Origin: Phycisphaera sp.
Lineage (GTDB): Bacteria > Planctomycetota > Phycisphaerae > Phycisphaerales > Zrk34
Reading direction: 5' to 3'
Assembly: GCA_016125285.1 (NCBI GenBank)
Contig: WGMA01000022.1
Location: 1 to 64,000 of the forward strand
DNA: 64,000 bases
Shown: positions 3,636 to 45,500 of the stretch, piece by piece
How the letters are laid out: every line of letters starts with the position of its first letter
How positions within the stretch are numbered: position 1 is the stretch's first letter
Translations under genes and position numbers: made by a program
The notes under the pieces: model-generated
The model's database searches: none
Told to the model about the DNA's origin: nothing
The model's input: only the letters and a program-made list of their open reading frames with translations

Positions 3636-4496
3636 ATGGCGATTCGAGTCTACAATCCGACCAGCCCCGGGCGACGCAACGCGTCGGTCAACCTCTACTC
3701 CGAGGTGACCAAGAAGACGCCCGAGAAGACGCTGCTCAAGAAGCTGACCAAGACCGGCGGTCGCAACCACAAGGGTGTGATCACGGTCCGTCACCGCGGC
3801 GGCGGCCACAAGCGCCGTTACCGCGTGATCGACTTCAAGCGCAACAAGCTGGACGTGCCGGCGAAGGTGATCGGCATCGAGTACGACCCCAACCGCACGT
3901 GCAACATCGCGCTGCTGGAATACGCCGACGGCGAGCGCCGCTACATCATCGCCCCCATCGGTCTGACCGACGGGATGGAAGTGATCAGCGGCGCCAACGC
4001 GGTAGAGCCGACCGTCGGCAACAGCATGCGTATCAGGAACATCCCCCCGGGTCTGACGCTGCACAACGTGGAGCTGGAGCCGGGCAAGGGTGGGCAGATG
4101 GGCCGCGCCGCCGGCGTGGGCGTCCGCCTGCTCAACAAGGAAGGCAAGTGGGCGACGCTGATCCTGCCGAGCGGTGAGATCCGCCAGGTGTCGCTCGAGT
4201 GCCGGGCGACGATCGGTCAGGTCGGCAACACCGACCACCAGAACGTGAAGCTCGGCAAGGCCGGTCGCAAGCGCTGGATGGGCATCCGCCCGTCGGTCCG
4301 CGGCATGGCGATGAGCCACCACGCCCACCCGCTGGGTGGTGGCGAAGGTCGATCCAAGGGCGGTCGCTCTCCCTGTTCGCCGACGGGCGTTCCCGCAAAG
4401 GGCGGCCCGACCCGAGACAAGGTCAAGGCGTCCAACAAGCGAATCATCCGTCGCCGTCGCTCCAAGCGTTACGGCATCCAGCGGCTGTCCAAGTAA
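3636..4496 (+). CDS. rplB: Ribosomal protein uL2
   Basis: Highly conserved 50S core protein needed for subunit joining and peptidyl transfer. The 286-aa product carries [20 protein letters not shown] near residue 50 and the C-terminal signature [20 protein letters not shown], including the universally conserved histidine. It ends in a basic [11 protein letters not shown] tail. It is about ten residues longer than the E. coli protein, without any obvious extra domain. Confidence 0.98.
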
Positions 4497-4514
4497 CCGT
4501 AAGAGGCAACACCG

Positions 4515-4781
4515 ATGTCACGCAGCTTGAAAAAAGGCCCGTTCGTGGACGAGAAGCTCTACCGCAAGGTGGAGGTTCTCAACCAGCAGAACCGCAAGCA
4601 GCCGATCAAGACCTGGTCGCGCGGTTGCACCATCGTGCCGGAGTTCGTCGGCCACACCTTCCAGGTGCACAACGGCCGCGTCTTCCTCGACGTGTTCGTC
4701 ACCGAGGACATGGTCGGGCACAAGCTCGGCGAGTTCTCGCTGACCCGCACGTTCAAGGGCCACCGCATCAAGGACAAGTAA
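4515..4781 (+). CDS. rpsS: Ribosomal protein uS19
   Basis: An 88-aa 30S head protein that forms a complex with S13 and contacts the A-site region. It begins [15 protein letters not shown] and holds the family motif [16 protein letters not shown]. It is preceded by AGAGG and lies 18 nt after rplB, the normal order. Confidence 0.97.
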
Positions 4782-4825
4782 CGCAACCGTCCGACGCCGT
4801 GTGAGGCGTCGCGGAGATCACAGCC

Positions 4826-5164
4826 ATGGCTTACAAGAGCTCATACCGATTCGCCCGCATCAGCGCCCGCAAGGCGCGCCTGCTGGTGGACCTGATCCGC
4901 AACAAGCCGATCGACAAGGCGCAGACCGCTCTGGAGTTTTCCAAGAAGCGCGCCGCGACGATGGTGCTCAAGGCGCTGAACGCCGCGATCGCCAACGCCG
5001 AGGAGGTGACCGACGGCGCCGTCGATCACCGCCGCCTGGTCGTCAGCGAGGCCCGCGTGGACGAGGGCCCGACCATCAAGCGTTGGCAGCCCAAGGACCG
5101 CGGCCGCGCTCACCCGATCCTCAAGCGTACGAGCCACATCCACGTGGCCGTCGACGTCCGCTGA
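4826..5164 (+). CDS. rplV: Ribosomal protein uL22
   Basis: A 112-aa 50S protein whose beta-hairpin, with L4, forms the exit-tunnel constriction. Seen features are the N-terminal RISARKARLLVDLIRNK helix, the ANAEE segment and the C-terminal PRGRA-like hairpin KDRGRAHPILKRTSHI. It lies between rpsS and rpsC as expected. Confidence 0.97.
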   Translation: MAYKSSYRFARISARKARLLVDLIRNKPIDKAQTALEFSKKRAATMVLKALNAAIANAEEVTDGAVDHRRLVVSEARVDEGPTIKRWQPKDRGRAHPILKRTSHIHVAVDVR

Positions 5165-5181
5165 ACCGAGTAAGGAACCAC

Positions 5182-5886
5182 ATGGGACAGAAAACGCATC
5201 CATTCGGATTCCGAGTCGGCATCACCGAGGCTCACCGCAGCCGGTGGTACGCCCCGAAGCTGCTGTACGGCGAACTGCTCGTTGAAGACGAGAAGATCCG
5301 CCAGTACTGCGACCGCGAGCTGAACCGCAAGCCGCCGTTCGCCGCGGTGTCCGACGTGCACATCGAGCGCACGCGTGAAGAGCTGAAGGTGATCCTCAAG
5401 ACCGCGCGTCCGGGCCTGGTGATCGGGCCGAAGGGCGCCGAGGTCGAGCGGCTGACCAACGAGCTGATGAAGATGACCGGCCGCAAGGTCAGCATCGACA
5501 TCATCGAGGTCACCGAGCCGGACCTCGACGCGAAGCTCGTGGCCGAAGGCGTCGCCGAGCAGCTCAAGCGCCGCACCGGCTTCCGCCGCGTGCTCAAGCA
5601 GCGTGCCGAGGCGACGATGACCGCCGGGGCGCTGGGCGTGAAGATCCAGATCAGCGGCCGCCTGGGCGGCGCGGAGATGGGTCGGCAGGAAACGATCCGC
5701 CTGGGGTCGATCCCGCTGCAGACGCTGCAGGCGAACGTGGATTACGCCCTGTCCGAAGCGTTCACGACCTACGGCGCCATCGGCGTGAAGGTGTGGATCT
5801 ACAAGGGCATGTACGAAGAGATCAAGGAAGAGGAAGAGTACTCACGTGCCGCCGGCGCCCGCCCGCGTGCCCGTGGACGTCACTGA
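5182..5886 (+). CDS. rpsC: Ribosomal protein uS3
   Basis: A 234-aa 30S protein at the mRNA entry channel with an N-terminal KH domain (motif GLVIGPKGAEVERL) and the C-terminal domain ending in GVKVWIYKG. It begins MGQKTHPFGFRVGIT, typical of the family. AAGGA lies 6-7 nt before the ATG at 5182; the open frame extends far upstream through rplV in another frame, so this internal start is the real one. The tail after the KVWIYKG motif is short, acidic then arginine-rich. Confidence 0.97.
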   Translation: MGQKTHPFGFRVGITEAHRSRWYAPKLLYGELLVEDEKIRQYCDRELNRKPPFAAVSDVHIERTREELKVILKTARPGLVIGPKGAEVERLTNELMKMTGRKVSIDIIEVTEPDLDAKLVAEGVAEQLKRRTGFRRVLKQRAEATMTAGALGVKIQISGRLGGAEMGRQETIRLGSIPLQTLQANVDYALSEAFTTYGAIGVKVWIYKGMYEEIKEEEEYSRAAGARPRARGRH

Positions 5887-5936
5887 TCCGAAAGAACTGA
5901 CCGGCGGGCGCAACCCGCCGGATTGGAGCGTGCGAT

Positions 5937-6362
5937 ATGGCCAACATGCCCAAGAGAGTGAAGTTCCGCAAGCAGATGCGGCGTGCGAAGAAGTCGCACG
6001 TGAAAGCCAGCCGCGGCAACTACGTCGCGTTCGGCGAGTACGGCATCCAGTCGCTGGAAGGTGGCTGGCTCGGCGCCCGGCAGATCGAGGCCGGACGTAT
6101 CGCCGCCACGCACTTCCTGCGTCGTGAAGGCAAGATCTTCATCCGGGTGTTCCCGGACAAGCCGATCTCGAAGAAGCCGCTGGAAACCCGAATGGGTAAG
6201 GGCAAGGCCGAGACCGAGTACTGGGCCGCGGTGGTCCGCCCCGGCACGATCCTGTTCGAGATCGCCGGCGTGCCCGAGGGCCTGGCCAAGGAAGCCCTGG
6301 CCCGCATCGCCCACAAGATGCCGTTCAAGTGCCGCATGGTTCAGCGCCGTCACGGCGTGTGA
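5937..6362 (+). CDS. rplP: Ribosomal protein uL16
   Basis: A 141-aa 50S protein close to the A-site tRNA and the binding sites of antibiotics such as evernimicin. The start MPKRVKFRKQMR and the sequences RIFPDKP-like (VFPDKPISKKP) and MGKGKAETEYWAAVV identify it. The annotated ATG at 5937 adds MAN before MPKR; the ATG at 5946 is possible. It sits between rpsC and rpmC. Confidence 0.97.
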   Translation: MANMPKRVKFRKQMRRAKKSHVKASRGNYVAFGEYGIQSLEGGWLGARQIEAGRIAATHFLRREGKIFIRVFPDKPISKKPLETRMGKGKAETEYWAAVVRPGTILFEIAGVPEGLAKEALARIAHKMPFKCRMVQRRHGV

Positions 6363-6385
6363 TCACGCAACGAGGTAAGCAGACG

Positions 6386-6598
6386 ATGAAAGCCCAAGAA
6401 GCTCACAAGATGTCCGACGAAGAGTTGGCGGTCGAGATCGACCGGCTCCGGCGGCACCTGTACGACCTGAAGAGCCAGGCGGTCACCGAGAAGCTCGAGG
6501 ACCCCAGCCAAGTACGCAAGACCCGCCGCGACATCGCGCGCCTGCTGACCGAGACCAACTCGCGGCAGATGAAGACCACGGAGACGACCCAGTCATGA
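6386..6598 (+). CDS. rpmC: Ribosomal protein uL29
   Basis: A 70-aa two-helix 50S protein at the tunnel exit beside L23. The helical stretches [20 protein letters not shown] and [13 protein letters not shown] match the family. The start is the ATG at 6386 with GAGG about 10 nt upstream; an upstream in-frame ATG lies within rplP. Its stop overlaps the rpsQ start by four bases (ATGA). Confidence 0.95.
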
Positions 6599-6921
6599 GC
6601 ACCAACATCCGCAAGCCGCTCGTCGGCACACGCATCGGCAAGGTCGCTTCCGACAAGCGTGACCAGACCATCAAGGTGGTCTTCACGTACAAGCGCAAGG
6701 TGCCGAAGTACGGCAAGTACGTCCGTCAGCGCACGGTGTACCACGTGCACGACCCGAACAACGAGGCCTTCGAGGGCGACACCGTCGAGATCGCTCCCTG
6801 CAGGCCGATCAGCAAGACCAAGAGCTGGCGACTGGTCCGCATCGTCGAGCGCGCCCCCGGGCGAGCCGACGCGGCCCAGGCCACAGCGGCCGACGCTTCG
6901 GCCGGTGAAGGAGCCGACTGA
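6595..6921 (+). CDS. rpsQ: Ribosomal protein uS17 with short C-terminal extension
   Basis: 30S OB-fold protein S17, recognised by [15 protein letters not shown] and the C-terminal [16 protein letters not shown]. The core ends near residue 87; a further 20 residues are Ala-, Asp- and Glu-rich, an addition also seen in larger form in the L17 and S5 genes of this operon. It overlaps rpmC by four bases and rplN by one, so translation is probably coupled. Confidence 0.96.
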
Positions 6922-7307
6922 TGATTCAGACCGAATCCAGAGTCGATGTCGCCGATAACACCGGCGCCAAGATCGCCTACGTCATCCGCGTGATGAAGGG
7001 CTCGACCGGTCGCGGCCAGTTCACCCGCAAGACCGCGGGTGTGGGCGACAAGGTCAAGGTGTCGATCAAGAAGGCCCTGCCGAACGGCGAGGTCAAGGAG
7101 CACGAGGTCTGCATGGCCGTGGTCGTGCGGACGAACTACCCCACGCGTCGCGACGATGGCAGCTACGTCCGCTTCGACCGCAACGCCGTGGTGATCATCG
7201 ACAACGAAGGCAACCCGCGCGGCACCCGCATCTTCGGGGCCGTCGCCCGCGAACTCCGCGAGAAGAACTACATGAAGATCGTCTCGCTGGCGTCGGAGGT
7301 GATTTGA
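6921..7307 (+). CDS. rplN: Ribosomal protein uL14
   Basis: A 128-aa 50S protein at the subunit interface, binding L19 and the silencing factor RsfS. The start [17 protein letters not shown] and the motif [20 protein letters not shown] are diagnostic. It overlaps rpsQ by one base (TGATG). A few residues longer than the usual 122, mainly in the middle ([13 protein letters not shown]). Confidence 0.98.
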
Positions 7308-7308
7308 G

Positions 7309-7656
7309 ATGGCGCAACACGTAATCAAAGGCGATCTGGTGATGGTCACCGCGGGCAACGACCGCGGCAAGACCGGCAAGGTGCTCGTGGTCGACTCGAA
7401 GAACGACAAGGTCGTCGTCGAGGGCGTCAACGTCCGTGCCAAGCACGTGCGTCCGTCGCAGCAGAACCCGCAGGGCGGGCGCGTCGAGCGTGAGATGCCG
7501 ATCCACATCTCCAACGTCTCGCCGCTGAGCCCCTCGGCGAAGAAGCCGACGCGTGTCCGCTTCGTCACCGAGGCCGACGGCACCAAGAACCGCGTGGCCG
7601 CCAAGGGCGGCGACGTGCTGCACACGCTGCGGAAATCGACCGCGAAGAAGAAGTGA
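7309..7656 (+). CDS. rplX: Ribosomal protein uL24
   Basis: A 115-aa assembly-initiating 50S protein with an N-terminal KOW motif (KGDLVMVTAGNDRGKTGKV) and the conserved NPQGGRVEREMPIHISNV segment. It follows rplN by a single base. Confidence 0.97.
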   Translation: MAQHVIKGDLVMVTAGNDRGKTGKVLVVDSKNDKVVVEGVNVRAKHVRPSQQNPQGGRVEREMPIHISNVSPLSPSAKKPTRVRFVTEADGTKNRVAAKGGDVLHTLRKSTAKKK

Positions 7657-7704
7657 TCAACACCTGGCCCGTCGGCCTGGCCGGCGGGAGCGAGGGAACT
7701 GACG

Positions 7705-8268
7705 ATGTCTGTTCGCATGAAGGAAAAGTACGAGAACGAGGTCGCCCCGAAGGTCGCCGAGAAGTTCGGCGTGACCAACAAGCTGGCGATGCCGAAGCTC
7801 CAGAAGATCGTGCTGAACGTCGGCATGGGCAAGGAGATCGAGGGCACCAAGGTCAAGCCTCACGTGCGTGACCAGGTGCTCAGCGACCTGGCGGCGATCA
7901 CCGGTCAGAAGGCCGTGCTGATCCAGGCCAAGAAGGCCGTGTCGAACTTCAAGGTCCGCGACGGCTGGCTGACGCACGCGAAGGTCACCCTCCGCGGCCA
8001 GCGCATGTGGGAGTTCTTCGACCGCCTGATCGCGCTGGCGATCCCGCGTGTCCGCGACTTCCGCGGGCTGTCGGACACGAGCTTCGACAAGCAGGGCAAC
8101 TACTCGATCGGCGTGACCGAGCAGGGCATCTTCCCTGAGATCAATATGGCCGAGGCCCAGTACACCCACGGCATGAACATCAACTTCGTGTTCAGCAACT
8201 CGGATCCGGAGAAGACCCGGTTCCTGCTGGCGGAGCTGGGCGTGCCGTTCAAGCGCGACGAGGACTAA
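7705..8268 (+). CDS. rplE: Ribosomal protein uL5
   Basis: A 187-aa 50S central-protuberance protein that binds 5S rRNA and contacts P-site tRNA. Key segments are [34 protein letters not shown], and the G-V-T-E-Q-IFPEI stretch. The start at 7705 has GAGG-like sequence upstream (GAGGGAAC), and a downstream ATG at 7717 is less likely. Confidence 0.97.
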
Positions 8269-40271: not shown

Positions 40272-40486
40272 GATGCCGGATGCGGGATCGGGCGTTGCGA
40301 GCCCGATGCTGGATGCGGGATGGCTCGCTGCGCTCGCGATGCCGGATTGTCGCGGGTATACGCTGGGCGCATCCAGCATCCAGCATCCAGCATCCAGCAT
40401 CCAGCATCCAGCATCCAGCATCCAGCATCCAGCATCCAGCATCCAGCATCCAGCATCCAGCATCCAGCATCGCGAGCGCAGCGAGC
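40272..40486. repeat. Heptamer element with 20-bp perfect arms and long array
   Basis: The left part has heptamers GATGCCG, GATGCGG, GATCGGG, GATGCTG, GATGCGG and GATGGCT (40272-40325). An exact 20-bp inverted repeat, 40323-40342 with 40467-40486 (core GCTCGCTGCGCTCGCGATGC), encloses a junction and 14.6 perfect GCATCCA units (40369-40470). Since the left heptamers are complementary to the array, the whole can form a long stem. It lies between hisF and the sigma factor gene. Confidence 0.95.
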
Positions 40487-40527: not shown

Positions 40528-41136
40528 GTGAGCCACACCACGATAGAACCGCAAGCCGTGCCGCAAGACGTCGCAGAATCCGGGGCCACACCCGCCGACG
40601 ACCCGCGCTCCGATCTGGAGCTGGTCGACGCGATCAACTCCGGCGACCCCGCCGCGTTCGACGCGCTGTACCTGCGCTACCGCGATTGGGTGCTGCGGCT
40701 GGCGTGGCGGTTCACGCGGGATCACGACGCGGCGGGGGACGTGCTGCAGGACACGTTCACCTACGTGCTGCGCAAGTTCCCCGGCTTCGCGCTGACCGCG
40801 CGGTTCACCACGTTCCTCTACCCCGTCGTGCGACACGTGGCGATCGCCAACCAGAAGAAGGCCCGACGCATGATCCTCGATGACGGACAGATCGATCAGC
40901 CCGCCGAGCCGGACCCACCGTCAGCCGACACGCAGCGGCGGCAGCTGGCGTCGGTCATGGCGTGCCTCAGCGAGGACCATCGCGAGGCGGTGCTGCTGCG
41001 GTTCGTGGACGGGTTTTCGCTGGCGGAGATCGCCGAGGCGGTGGGCGTGCCGGTCGGCACGGTGAAGAGTCGGCTGCATCACGCCATCAAGGCCCTGCGC
41101 GACGACCCGGCCACGCAACGCTACTTCGAACAATGA
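40528..41136 (+). CDS. ECF-type RNA polymerase sigma factor
   Basis: A 202-aa sigma70-family protein with region 2 ([20 protein letters not shown], then [15 protein letters not shown], the -10 recognition helix) and region 4 ([20 protein letters not shown] and the helix-turn-helix [20 protein letters not shown]). There are no regions 1 and 3, so it is of the extracytoplasmic-function class. The chosen start is the GTG at 40528, with no clear ribosome binding site. The next gene, 40 nt downstream, encodes a membrane protein in the position of an anti-sigma factor. The upstream TTGAACC (from 40488) could be an ECF-type -35, but this is weak. Confidence 0.92.
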
Positions 41137-41176
41137 ACCCGAGGCGGCCGCCGTCGCCTAAACACGTGGAGACACA

Positions 41177-41806
41177 ATGAACGAGAGGCACGAACAACAC
41201 GACGCGGACAGCCCGGATGATGCGGGCGAGCCGACGCTCCCGGCGGCGCTCGTCGCGGACCTGACGGCGCTGTACCGGCCGCCTTCGACACTGCGTGCGC
41301 CGTCACGCGTGGATGACACGGTGTTCCGCGCGGCGCGTGAGCACCTCGCGGGCGTCAGTGCGCTGGGCGCAAAAACCCCTCTCTCCCAAGTGGGGGAGAG
41401 GTTGGGTGAGGGGGATGGATCTTCGGACGCGTCGAGCCATCGCTTACACAGTGAAGCCTCCGACGACTCGACCCTCACCCCGGCCCTCTCCCTGTCAGGG
41501 AGGGGGAGGTGGCGGTGGGCCCTCCCGTGGGGTCTGGCGGCCGCGGCGGCGCTCGCGGTCGCGGCGACGGTGTCGATCACGCTGATTCGCACCGACGCAC
41601 CCCGGGCCGCCGCCGACCCGCGCGACATCGACGCCAACGGGCGTGTGGACATCCTCGACGCGTTCGCGCTGGCGCGACGGTTGGAGCAGCCGCTCGGCGG
41701 GGTGGACCCCGCGCGGGTCGACGTGAACGGCGACGGCGCGGTCGACGCCGCGGACGTCGACGCGATCGCGGCGGCGGCCGTGAAACTCAACGGCGGGAGG
41801 GGATGA
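41177..41806 (+). CDS. Dockerin-bearing single-pass membrane protein, putative anti-sigma factor
   Basis: A 209-aa protein. The N-terminal 65 residues are cytosolic, acidic, and in the position of an anti-sigma domain (no ZAS zinc motif). Residues about 67-111 are encoded by a palindromic repeat (41376-41509). One membrane helix follows (about 113-136), then two EF-hand-like dockerin type I repeats: DIDANGRVDILDAF near 147 and DVNGDGAVDAADVD near 180. Dockerins bind cohesins on the outside of the cell. The stop overlaps the next start by four bases (ATGA). That this protein controls the sigma factor is inference from gene order. Confidence 0.8.
   Translation: MNERHEQHDADSPDDAGEPTLPAALVADLTALYRPPSTLRAPSRVDDTVFRAAREHLAGVSALGAKTPLSQVGERLGEGDGSSDASSHRLHSEASDDSTLTPALSLSGRGRWRWALPWGLAAAAALAVAATVSITLIRTDAPRAAADPRDIDANGRVDILDAFALARRLEQPLGGVDPARVDVNGDGAVDAADVDAIAAAAVKLNGGRG
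41376..41509. repeat. Inverted pair of G-rich hairpin repeats inside a coding region
   Basis: The left unit is a hairpin CCTCTCTCCC/GGGGAGAGG followed by GGGTGAGGG (41404-41412). The right unit is its inverted copy, CCCTCACCC (41472-41480) followed by the hairpin CCCTCTCCC/GGGAGGGGG. The whole is translated in frame (KTPLSQVGERLGEGDG, then LTPALSLSGRGRW). This type of CCCTCTCCC palindromic repeat is common between genes in Gram-negative bacteria; here it lies within one. Confidence 0.9.
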
Positions 41807-42351
41807 AGATGACGCGGCTGACGGCCATGACGGCGGCGGTGGCGCTCGTGGCTTGCACGGCGATGACGCTGTGCGGACCGCGGCCGCGTGCGCTGGCTCA
41901 GGCCGACACGCCGAACGCGGCGAAGGAGCCGGTCGATCCGCTGAACGTCGAGCCGGGGGTGGCGCGTGAGGTCGCCGGGCCGGTGCGTTTCGCGGCGTAC
42001 GACGTGCTGATCGACGGCGACGCGCCGCTCGCGGCGTACCAGGTCGAGGTGTGGTCGCGGACGGGCAACGTCGCGATCGTCGGCATCGAGGGTGGGGCCG
42101 ACGCGGCGTTCGCCGACCCGCCGTACTACGACCCTCAGGCGATGCGGCACGACCGCGTGATCCTCGCGGCGTTCAGCACGAAGCCGGCCGCGCAGCTCCC
42201 GCCCGCCGGGTCGACCCGCGTGGCGACGATCCACGTGCAGATCACCGGCGACGCCGACCCGCGGTTCGACACGAAACTCACCGCCGCGGCGACCACGGAC
42301 GGCGCGCCGCTGCGTGCGACGGTAAACTTGAAAGGGGCCACTCCGCGATGA
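41803..42351 (+). CDS. Secreted cohesin-like protein
   Basis: A 182-aa exported protein with a signal peptide (residues 1-30, ending ALAQ-A). The mature part is rich in beta-strand-like stretches: RFAAYDVLIDGDAPLAAYQV, VAIVGIEGGADAAFADPPYY, DRVILAAFSTKPAAQLPPAG and VATIHVQITGDADP. This order, with PPYYDP and the GIEGG turn, resembles a cohesin-type jelly-roll domain, but the match is by eye only. The adjacent upstream gene encodes a dockerin, the natural cohesin partner. It overlaps its neighbours by four bases on both sides, so all four genes are one coupled operon. Confidence 0.65.
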   Translation: MKMTRLTAMTAAVALVACTAMTLCGPRPRALAQADTPNAAKEPVDPLNVEPGVAREVAGPVRFAAYDVLIDGDAPLAAYQVEVWSRTGNVAIVGIEGGADAAFADPPYYDPQAMRHDRVILAAFSTKPAAQLPPAGSTRVATIHVQITGDADPRFDTKLTAAATTDGAPLRATVNLKGATPR

Positions 42352-45300
42352 ACCAGCCACCGAGCCACAGATCGACATTCACACGAGCCTGCACGCGGGT
42401 CGTGCTGTTCCTGCTGAGCCTGACGCTCGGCGTCGTCACCGGCACGTCGATGCAGGGATGCCAGTCGGCCGTGGCGTACGAGCGCGCCGAGCCGCAGGCG
42501 GCGATGCCCGGCACGCACCCTCGGGTGGGGGCGCCGCTCTTGATCGAGGGCGGCGTCGGCGCTGCGGATGGCGACGAGTTGGCCGGTGAGCTTTTGTTCG
42601 CTCGTGCGCGGTCGCTGCGGAGCGAACAGCTCGTGGCGGAGGCCGACGACGCGGCGAAGAACCGCGAGCTCAACCGCGCGTCGAAGCTTTACCAGCAGGC
42701 GGCGCTCCTCGACCCCGACAACACCGAAGCCCTCGCCGGCGCCGAGCGTGTCGGCGCGATTCTCGGGCGTGACACCGGCGCGAACATCATCGAGGACTAC
42801 GCGCAGATCATCGAGCTGCGCGCCCAGCAGGCCAAGCCGCACTACGAGAAGGCGATGCAGCACGCCCGTGAGGCGTTCCGGGGTGGCAACGCCACCGAGG
42901 CGCAGGACGCGCTGTCGCTGGCGAAGGCGATCGTCGATACGAACCGTCAATACCTCACCGACGACGAATACAGGCGGATGAACAAGGCGGTGCTCGACTA
43001 CCAGGCCGAGGTGCTGCAACACGCCGAGCGTCAGCGGCTCAAGGAGCAGTCGACGCAGGAGGCCGCGGTCGATAAGGAGCAGCGATCGCGGCATGAGAAG
43101 GCGGAGGGCGATCGCGACGCGAAGGTGCAGGAGATGCTCGCACGCGCCAGCGAATTACGACGTGAGCGGAAGTACAAACAGGCGCTCGACCTGCTGGACC
43201 GGGTGAAGTTCCTCGATCCGGGCAATGTCGCCGCCGAGGCGATGGAGGAGATCATCGCGGACGCGATCATCTACCTCAACACCAACAGGCTGAACGGCAA
43301 GATCGACCTGATGGCGGCGCGGCATTCCGTGCAAGCACTTGAAGGAGCGCGTCCCCAGGAGTCGGCGCAGCCCTACAACGATCTGATCGTGTATCCGGGG
43401 GCCTGGCCGCAGATCGACACGGACGGGGATGGCAAGCCGGACCGCCTGGCGCCGTTCGAGCCGCGCCAGGTCGAGGACCTGCGGGTGCGTGCGGCGCGGG
43501 AGCGCGAGGAACTGCTGGTGCCCGACGAGTTCTTCAAGCCGTCGAAAGCGGGATTGGAGTACGTCAAGGCGGCGCCGGCCGGTTCGCTGCCGGGCGAGGA
43601 CGAAGAGGTGTGGGTGATCATCCGTCACGACCCGCGCGCGGCGGACAAGCGGCGCGACGGTCCGGTCGGCGGTGAACTGCGGACGACGCTGCCCGGCGAG
43701 CAGCGTGAGGTGCCGCTGCCGCTGAAGCACACCGACGTGCACGGCGACATCGCCGGGCCGATCGCGACCGTGGACGTCACGCAGCAGTTCGCCAACCCCT
43801 TCAGCGAGAAGATCGAGGCGGTGTACGTGTTCCCGCTGCCGGACGACGCGGCGGTCAGCGAGTTCGTGATGCAGATCGGCGAGCGCCGCATCCGCGGGAT
43901 CATCCGCGAGCGCGACGAGGCCGAGCGCATCTACTCGCAGGCGAAGCACGCGGGCCGGGTCGCGTCGCTGCTGACGCAGGAGCGTGCGAACATCTTCACG
44001 CAGAAGGTGGCGAACATCGAGCCGGGCAAGCGGGTCGACGTGCACATCCGCTACTTCCACACGCTGGCGTACGTGGACGGCTGGTACGAGTGGGTGTTCC
44101 CGATGGTGGTCGGCCCGCGGTACAACCCGGCGGGGACGGCCGACCCGGTAATCGCGGCGCCGCGCGGCGGATCGAACGGGCGTGACACCACCGTCGAGTA
44201 CCTCCGCGCCGAAGAGCGCAGCGGGCACGACATCGGCCTGACGGTGAACATCGACGCCGGGGCGAAGATCGAAGAGGTGCGCTGCGACTCGCACGTCGTG
44301 CAGACGACCGAGAAGGACCGACGGACCATCGTGACGCTCAGCGCCAACGACCGCGTGCCGAACCGCGACTTCGTGCTGCGTTACCGCGTCGCGGCCGATC
44401 AGATCAAGCCGCAGCTGATCACGCACCGCGACGTGGACCGCGGGCAGGGGTACTTCACGCTGACGCTGTACCCGCCGCAGTACCTGAAATCTCTGCCGCG
44501 TGCGCCGATGGAGATGATCTTCGTGGTCGACTGCTCGGGCAGCATGAAGGGCGAGCCGATGGCGCAGGCGAAGGCGGCGATGGACCGCGCGCTGCGTCAC
44601 CTCGGGCCCGACGACACGTTCCAGATCATCCGGTTCTCGAACGACGCCTCGGCGTTCGGCGGCGCGCCGGTGGCCGCGACGCCGGCCAACCTGGACAGCG
44701 CCCGGTCGTACGTCGAGGGTCTCGACGCCGAGGGCGGCACGGAGATGCTCAAGGGCCTGCGCGCCGCGCTCGACTTCCCGCACGACCCGCGCCGCCTGCG
44801 GTTCGTCACGTTCCTGACCGACGGGTTCATCGGCAACGAGGCGGAGGTGCTCGGCGAGGTGTACAAGCGGGTCGACGCGTCACGCGTGTTCAGCTTCGGC
44901 GTCGGCTCGTCGCCGAACAGGTTCCTGCTGAGCCGCATGGCGAAGCTCGGGCGCGGCGCGGTGGCGTACCTGCCGCAGGGCGCCGACGGCGGGGCGGTGA
45001 TGGACGATTTCTTCGAGCGCATCAGCCATCCGGCGATGACCGACATCGAGATCGACTGGGGCGGCATGATGGTCGCCGACGTCTACCCGCGGCGGCTGCC
45101 GGACCTGTTCGTCGGCCGGCCGGTGGTGATCACCGGGATGTTCGTCGGCGACGGGCCGACCGATGTGGTGCTGCACGGCCGGGCGGGCGACCGCGCCGTC
45201 GAGGTCGGCATGCGCGTGAACCTCTCGGCGAAGGGACGCGACGCGAACAACCCGGGCATCCCCGCGGTGTGGGCGCGGCGTCAGATCGCCGACCTCGCCG

Positions 45301-45500
45301 ATCGCGCCACGTGGGACAGCCGCATCGACCTGCCGCGTCGCATCCGCAACGTCGCGCTCGACCACGCGCTGATGTCGGCGTACACGGCCTTCGTCGCCGT
45401 CGACGCGCTGTCCGACACCGCCGGCGCGTACGGCGTCACGACGCCCGTCCCCGTGCCGGTCCCGCAGGGCACGCGGTACGAGACGACGGTGCCGGAGTGA
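42348..45500 (+). CDS. VIT and von Willebrand A domain protein, probably lipid- or membrane-anchored
   Basis: A 1050-aa protein. An N-terminal hydrophobic segment ends in SMQGC, a lipobox-like sequence. TPR-like and coiled-coil repeats follow (RELNRASKLYQQAALLDPDN). Residues about 455-585 are a VIT domain (EKIEAVYVFPLPDDAAVSEF, RDEAERIYSQAKHAGRVASL) and residues about 718-890 a vWA domain with the MIDAS motif DCSGSM. The arrangement is that of the inter-alpha-trypsin-inhibitor heavy-chain type, widespread in Planctomycetota. vWA binds protein ligands through a divalent metal. The start at 42348 overlaps the upstream stop (ATGA). As the last gene of a sigma factor operon it is likely an envelope protein. 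Confidence 0.9.
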   Translation: MNQPPSHRSTFTRACTRVVLFLLSLTLGVVTGTSMQGCQSAVAYERAEPQAAMPGTHPRVGAPLLIEGGVGAADGDELAGELLFARARSLRSEQLVAEADDAAKNRELNRASKLYQQAALLDPDNTEALAGAERVGAILGRDTGANIIEDYAQIIELRAQQAKPHYEKAMQHAREAFRGGNATEAQDALSLAKAIVDTNRQYLTDDEYRRMNKAVLDYQAEVLQHAERQRLKEQSTQEAAVDKEQRSRHEKAEGDRDAKVQEMLARASELRRERKYKQALDLLDRVKFLDPGNVAAEAMEEIIADAIIYLNTNRLNGKIDLMAARHSVQALEGARPQESAQPYNDLIVYPGAWPQIDTDGDGKPDRLAPFEPRQVEDLRVRAAREREELLVPDEFFKPSKAGLEYVKAAPAGSLPGEDEEVWVIIRHDPRAADKRRDGPVGGELRTTLPGEQREVPLPLKHTDVHGDIAGPIATVDVTQQFANPFSEKIEAVYVFPLPDDAAVSEFVMQIGERRIRGIIRERDEAERIYSQAKHAGRVASLLTQERANIFTQKVANIEPGKRVDVHIRYFHTLAYVDGWYEWVFPMVVGPRYNPAGTADPVIAAPRGGSNGRDTTVEYLRAEERSGHDIGLTVNIDAGAKIEEVRCDSHVVQTTEKDRRTIVTLSANDRVPNRDFVLRYRVAADQIKPQLITHRDVDRGQGYFTLTLYPPQYLKSLPRAPMEMIFVVDCSGSMKGEPMAQAKAAMDRALRHLGPDDTFQIIRFSNDASAFGGAPVAATPANLDSARSYVEGLDAEGGTEMLKGLRAALDFPHDPRRLRFVTFLTDGFIGNEAEVLGEVYKRVDASRVFSFGVGSSPNRFLLSRMAKLGRGAVAYLPQGADGGAVMDDFFERISHPAMTDIEIDWGGMMVADVYPRRLPDLFVGRPVVITGMFVGDGPTDVVLHGRAGDRAVEVGMRVNLSAKGRDANNPGIPAVWARRQIADLADRATWDSRIDLPRRIRNVALDHALMSAYTAFVAVDALSDTAGAYGVTTPVPVPVPQGTRYETTVPE

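Follow-up and report, generated by a model that had tools for sequence, protein, structure and literature searches.

The pairing of dockerin with cohesin is known from cellulose-degrading complexes and is among the strongest protein clasps known. In logic, the nearest described counterparts of the locus reported here appear to be the RsgI proteins of the SigI/RsgI systems of Acetivibrio/Clostridium thermocellum, which, in the available part of PMC3413522, are membrane anti-sigma factors encoded beside the sigma gene and bearing an exported C-terminal binding module, with modules swapped among family members (CBM3, CBM42, CBM35 and PA14). The modules in the available parts of PMC3413522 and PMC11557425 are carbohydrate-binding or PA14, none of them being named a dockerin. 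Our locus differs in that it has a sigma factor of the ECF type, an anti-sigma factor that appears to descend from a zinc-finger form and, as exported module, a dockerin accompanied by a separate cohesin. A second likeness is to ECF sigma factors with a class I (zf-HC2) or a short class II (CnrY-like) anti-sigma factor, where the gene of a one-TM anti-sigma factor also follows the sigma gene, and CnrY indicates that a short domain of two helices can be enough (PMC7406223); the family studied here, however, has no zinc finger, and its sensor domain would be a separate docked protein. Cellulosomal and non-cellulosomal pairs, including the "planctosome" proposed in freshwater Phycisphaerae, share the type I dockerin and the cohesin fold, the planctosome even occurring in the same bacterial class. 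The planctosome model combines cohesins and dockerins for peptide degradation rather than transcription and has no link to sigma factors (PMC6461901), whereas our block has one dockerin, one cohesin and a sigma factor, with no scaffoldin, enzymes or peptidases. Finally, the VIT plus vWA layout of the last gene of the block (gene 4) recalls the marine sortase targets of TIGR03788, which it matches with 507 bits over residues 462-1044; this is below the curated cut-off of 551.65, and the protein is a putative lipoprotein with no C-terminal sortase motif.

The window, a stretch of 64,000 nucleotides, is part of contig C7 of a draft Phycisphaera genome of 6.09 Mb. Four plus-strand genes fill positions 40528-45500, in the order and at the coordinates given by the initial annotation. 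Their features are as follows.

40528..41136, plus strand: gene 1, ECF sigma factor, 202 aa, GTG start (Pfam and TIGR02937 matches)
41177..41806, plus strand: gene 2, putative membrane anti-sigma factor with a C-terminal type I dockerin, 209 aa (Pfam, model, zf-HC2 homologues)
41177..41371, plus strand: putative shortened cytoplasmic anti-sigma domain, residues 1-65 of gene 2 (alignments, model, profile comparison with zinc anti-sigma homologues)
41377..41512, no strand assigned: copy of an inverted-repeat element within gene 2 (arms 41392-41412 and 41472-41492; outer limits approximate)
41528..41587, plus strand: single predicted transmembrane helix, residues 118-137 of gene 2 (model, hydropathy)
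41621..41767, plus strand: type I dockerin, putatively periplasmic, residues 149-197 of gene 2 (Pfam, profile against solved dockerins)
41803..42351, plus strand: gene 3, secreted protein of predicted cohesin fold, 182 aa, with an N-terminal signal sequence (sequence, AlphaFold2 model)
41977..42336, plus strand: predicted cohesin fold, residues 59-178 of gene 3 (AlphaFold2 and structure search)
42348..45500, plus strand: gene 4, VIT-vWA putative lipoprotein, 1050 aa (Pfam, TIGR03788, pattern)
43722..44054, plus strand: VIT domain (Pfam)
44511..44960, plus strand: vWA domain (Pfam)

The ATGA overlaps reported earlier among the last three genes are real, lying at 41803-41806 (gene 2/gene 3) and 42348-42351 (gene 3/gene 4), and a gap of 40 nt separates the sigma gene from gene 2. 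Upstream, the heptamer GCATCCA is repeated in 14.7 perfect tandem copies at 40369-40471, an array that ends 56 nt before the sigma start codon and falls in the expected promoter region of the sigma gene. A search for a promoter motif common to the regions upstream of the sigma genes found nothing above shuffles.

The initial annotation had called for a check of co-occurrence in other genomes, and the block proved to be conserved. Of 61 close genomes, 12 hold a relative of gene 3; so do 69 of 400 from the order Phycisphaerales and 31 of 392 drawn from the phylum Planctomycetota (a sample that partly overlaps the others). Four Verrucomicrobiota records have one too, and the sigma genes of these four group in a single, well-supported clade. 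Among 70 annotated loci of the order, the sigma factor, the dockerin protein, the cohesin-fold protein and the VIT-vWA protein follow one another as four separate genes in 46; a further 6 differ only in that no sigma gene was detected. The junctions are conserved too, the 4-nt overlap being present at 46 of 53 between dockerin and cohesin genes and at 42 of 52 between cohesin and VIT-vWA genes. The same order is found in three of the Verrucomicrobiota records (L126, L129 and L132) and, with one inserted gene, in the fourth (L125), where a putative lipoprotein gene (~3874-4821) separates the dockerin and cohesin genes. No fifth conserved neighbour was seen near the block among the loci compared. 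This conservation among relatives rules out that the genes are neighbours by chance, and a viral origin of the block was rejected after a viral contig scan returned no matches. One locus is rearranged (L100), with the dockerin and cohesin genes preceding the sigma gene, in a genome (G109) that has no VIT match at all.

Gene 1 consists of sigma-70 regions 2 and 4 alone (Pfam Sigma70_r2 1.3e-10, Sigma70_r4_2 2.1e-16; TIGR02937 6e-26), which by the usual criterion makes its product an ECF sigma factor. Gene 2 is predicted to be a one-TM protein with its N-terminus in the cytoplasm, the cytoplasmic side of the helix being rich in Arg. Its C-terminal domain is a type I dockerin by definition, with two calcium-binding F-hand repeats whose EF-hand loops are intact (DIDANGRVDILD and DVNGDGAVDAAD) and a Dockerin_1 score above the cut-off (1.8e-9, 38.1 bits, Pfam cut-off 22.9). 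The dockerin profile also matches solved dockerins (best 3.1e-8), and the domain is the sole Dockerin_1 match in its own 6.09 Mb genome. Between residues 1-65 and the membrane lies the G+C-rich inverted-repeat element, which is dispersed in the genome (89 matches to its core versus 7 for the reversed pattern) and is read in frame to give ~45 residues of cytoplasmic linker. Alignments show that gene 2 orthologues are without it, and the linker that it encodes has low pLDDT in the gene 2 model.

The N-terminal domain of the window's gene 2 gave no Pfam match. It has two predicted helices (residues 23-33 and 43-64) and, in alignments, the motif P-x2-VD-x2-[IV]-x3-A. Homologues elsewhere in the phylum, which share with the window's gene 2 both the dockerin and the cohesin gene downstream, carry an N-terminal HxxxCxxC-like zinc finger (L144, L145, L155, L158, L159 and L160). 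In two of them, zf-HC2 and Dockerin_1 occur on one protein with zf-HC2 over the Pfam cut-off (38.0 and 36.2 bits, respectively, in L158; 23.3 and 37.4 bits in L160), and a profile of 66 window-type N-termini aligns directly behind the zinc finger (35 columns, P 2e-6, probability 89%). The zf-HC2 homologues and this profile alignment together argue for an anti-sigma ancestry of gene 2, in line with the putative anti-sigma factor of the initial annotation, and the Phycisphaerales form looks like an anti-sigma domain minus its former zinc finger. The zinc anti-sigma factors at L158:400-1437 (plus strand) and L160:1972-3117 (minus strand) have a long coiled coil between the membrane helix and the dockerin, and their genes adjoin one for a cohesin-like protein; this is the same idea in another architecture.

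For the 182-aa product of gene 3, no Pfam match (PF00963 included) and no NCBIfam match was found, and the cohesin-like profile had no usable match among the sequences of solved structures. For this reason, its fold was tested. The AlphaFold2 model, made from gene 3 together with 18 relatives, had a mean pLDDT of 84.8, rising to ~95 over residues 61-180. A Foldseek search with the model placed cohesins at the top with modest E-values (best 4.7e-3), and a second structural aligner gave a VIA Z of 9.7 to the type I cohesin 6kgc_A (116 residues, 3.0 A) and a Z of 9.6 to the C. thermocellum cohesin 1ohz_A. The best 45 rows of this ranking were all cohesins, the first unrelated protein having a Z of 7.1. 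The structure prediction that had been proposed as a check thus bears out the earlier suggestion of a cohesin, and gene 3 has, by its model, a cohesin fold. Since PF00963 does not match it, we call it a cohesin-fold protein and not a member of PF00963. Elsewhere in the same genome, PF00963 matches lie on contig C63 only, where two adjacent Pfam Cohesin genes (L027 ~5129-8001, minus strand) occur in a genome with one dockerin; one of the two products has ~207 aa and a C-terminal membrane helix.

The fusion of neighbouring genes is a classic sign that their products act together. Genes 2 and 3 form one reading frame in 10 loci of the order (L024, L084, L102, L105-L108 and L110-L112) as well as in L140, and the fused sequences have no signal peptide ahead of the cohesin part. 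In five more loci (L109, L113, L114, L115 and L026), an anti-sigma domain and membrane helix are joined to a cohesin-like domain without any dockerin. Nearly all genomes compared are metagenome assemblies, in which single fusions could be assembly errors; the gene 2-gene 3 fusion agrees in seven congeneric genomes. On the sigma tree the linked state takes five changes, and an AU test does not reject one origin (p 0.20), so that repeated independent fusion is not proven. A natural fusion places the dockerin and cohesin parts on the same side of the membrane, and we infer that both face the periplasm. Taken with adjacency, the fusions also suggest that the window dockerin binds the window cohesin, and together with the dockerin-less proteins they indicate that the two parts are permanently together, so that docking would be constitutive.

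These chains bear directly on the mechanism that the initial annotation had put forward, in which the sigma factor is set free when a mobile ligand, either the cohesin protein or a complex bound to the vWA protein, reaches the dockerin. A secreted cohesin and a membrane dockerin are indeed encoded together, and in most genomes they are separate proteins, which would allow reversible binding. In a natural one-chain fusion, however, release on binding would leave the switch permanently on, and we now consider this mechanism unlikely; a standing assembly is the simpler reading, and it is more likely that the signal acts on a cohesin already docked. We therefore regard as reasonably probable that the block encodes an ECF sigma factor with a two-piece transmembrane anti-sigma factor, the cohesin being a standing sensory subunit on the dockerin. 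Gene 2, which we infer to hold the sigma factor of the block, would do so through its shortened cytoplasmic anti-sigma domain, would span the membrane once and would end in a periplasmic dockerin; the dockerin would clasp the secreted product of gene 3, which would serve the anti-sigma factor as its outer, sensory domain; and a signal on the docked cohesin, possibly coming by way of the VIT-vWA lipoprotein of gene 4, would free the sigma factor.

The calcium loops of the dockerin lend themselves to another reading, in which the dockerin is a calcium-controlled clasp and periplasmic calcium sets the docking, so that the state of calcium or of the envelope is reported to the sigma factor. Consistent with this, 57 of 81 split forms retain both loops and 79 of 81 at least one, and loop loss is concentrated in forms whose fusion makes docking needless: among the 10 fused forms in the set, 3 have both loops and 7 have none, although these 7 belong to one genus and hence do not count as seven events. 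Most fusions retain the dockerin helix motif with the calcium loops gone, and within the fused clade formed by L102 and genus g45 a recognisable dockerin is present in L102, the loops being lost in the rest. On the other hand, 22 split forms lack one loop (2 lack both) and the loop-less fusions persist, which indicates that a response to calcium is not a universal need; a calcium-controlled clasp seems to us improbable, at about the level of the mobile ligand.

The standing sensory subunit may have a partner in gene 4, whose product contains a VIT and a vWA domain (Pfam VIT 1.6e-35, VWA_3 1.2e-17), a lipobox-like MQGC at residues 35-38 and the retained vWA metal-site motif DCSGSM. Among the VIT-vWA proteins of the loci, 45 of 52 have a lipobox-like cysteine by a simple pattern and 49 of 52 have DxSGSM. 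In mirror-tree comparisons, cohesin and VIT-vWA distances remained correlated after correction for the other two proteins (partial r 0.32, a value reached in 0 of 200 permutations), and the correlation of dockerin with cohesin beyond the sigma factor and VIT-vWA was weak (partial r 0.14, with 11 of 200 permutations as high), which tells against the proposed pair. As the VIT-vWA gene is the usual downstream neighbour and correlates with the cohesin, its product is a likely partner. The VIT domain is absent in 4 of 5 fused-clade genomes examined, which suggests that the core of sigma factor, anti-sigma factor and cohesin can do without VIT-vWA, and the partner would thus be non-essential. The same correlation, together with the two further cohesin domains of the genome, would agree with a role of the cohesin as a docking anchor on the cell surface for the VIT-vWA lipoprotein or for other proteins with a dockerin or cohesin, the sigma factor merely regulating the operon and the dockerin being a handle rather than a sensor; given that the dockerin is borne by what is by descent an anti-sigma factor, and that the core persists in VIT-less genomes, we find this more doubtful still than the two preceding alternatives.

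Two readings modelled on known systems were discarded. A cellulosome has several cohesins on a scaffoldin and many enzymes that bear dockerins, against the one dockerin and, on contig C63, the two further cohesin domains of this genome; and a biomass-sensing RsgI does not fit a gene 2 with no RsgI or carbohydrate-binding domain match, next to a sigma factor that matches ECF models and not SigI. Among relatives in the order, Dockerin_1 matches range from 0 to 104 per genome. With tens of other dockerins in many relatives, a dockerin there need not mean a cohesin partner.

The novelty claimed for the arrangement holds within the literature that we searched, where nothing nearer on dockerins or cohesins with anti-sigma factors in planctomycetes was found; an earlier mention in the ECF reclassification (10.1093/nar/gkaa1229) or in PMC3035643 is possible.

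In summary, a known clasp seems to be used for signalling in this block. More tentatively, the cohesin-dockerin pair may be a reversible, calcium-dependent joint by which sensor subunits attach to and detach from an anti-sigma factor and so control transcription, widely in Planctomycetota and Verrucomicrobiota, a possibility to which we give less weight than to the standing sensory subunit. Since split and fused forms both exist in nature, the idea is directly testable. If true, it would extend cohesin-dockerin pairs from the building of enzyme complexes to transcriptional signalling, would show how a sensor made in one piece can be divided into subunits that dock, or be fused, and would give one group among the numerous unexplained planctomycete dockerins a function.
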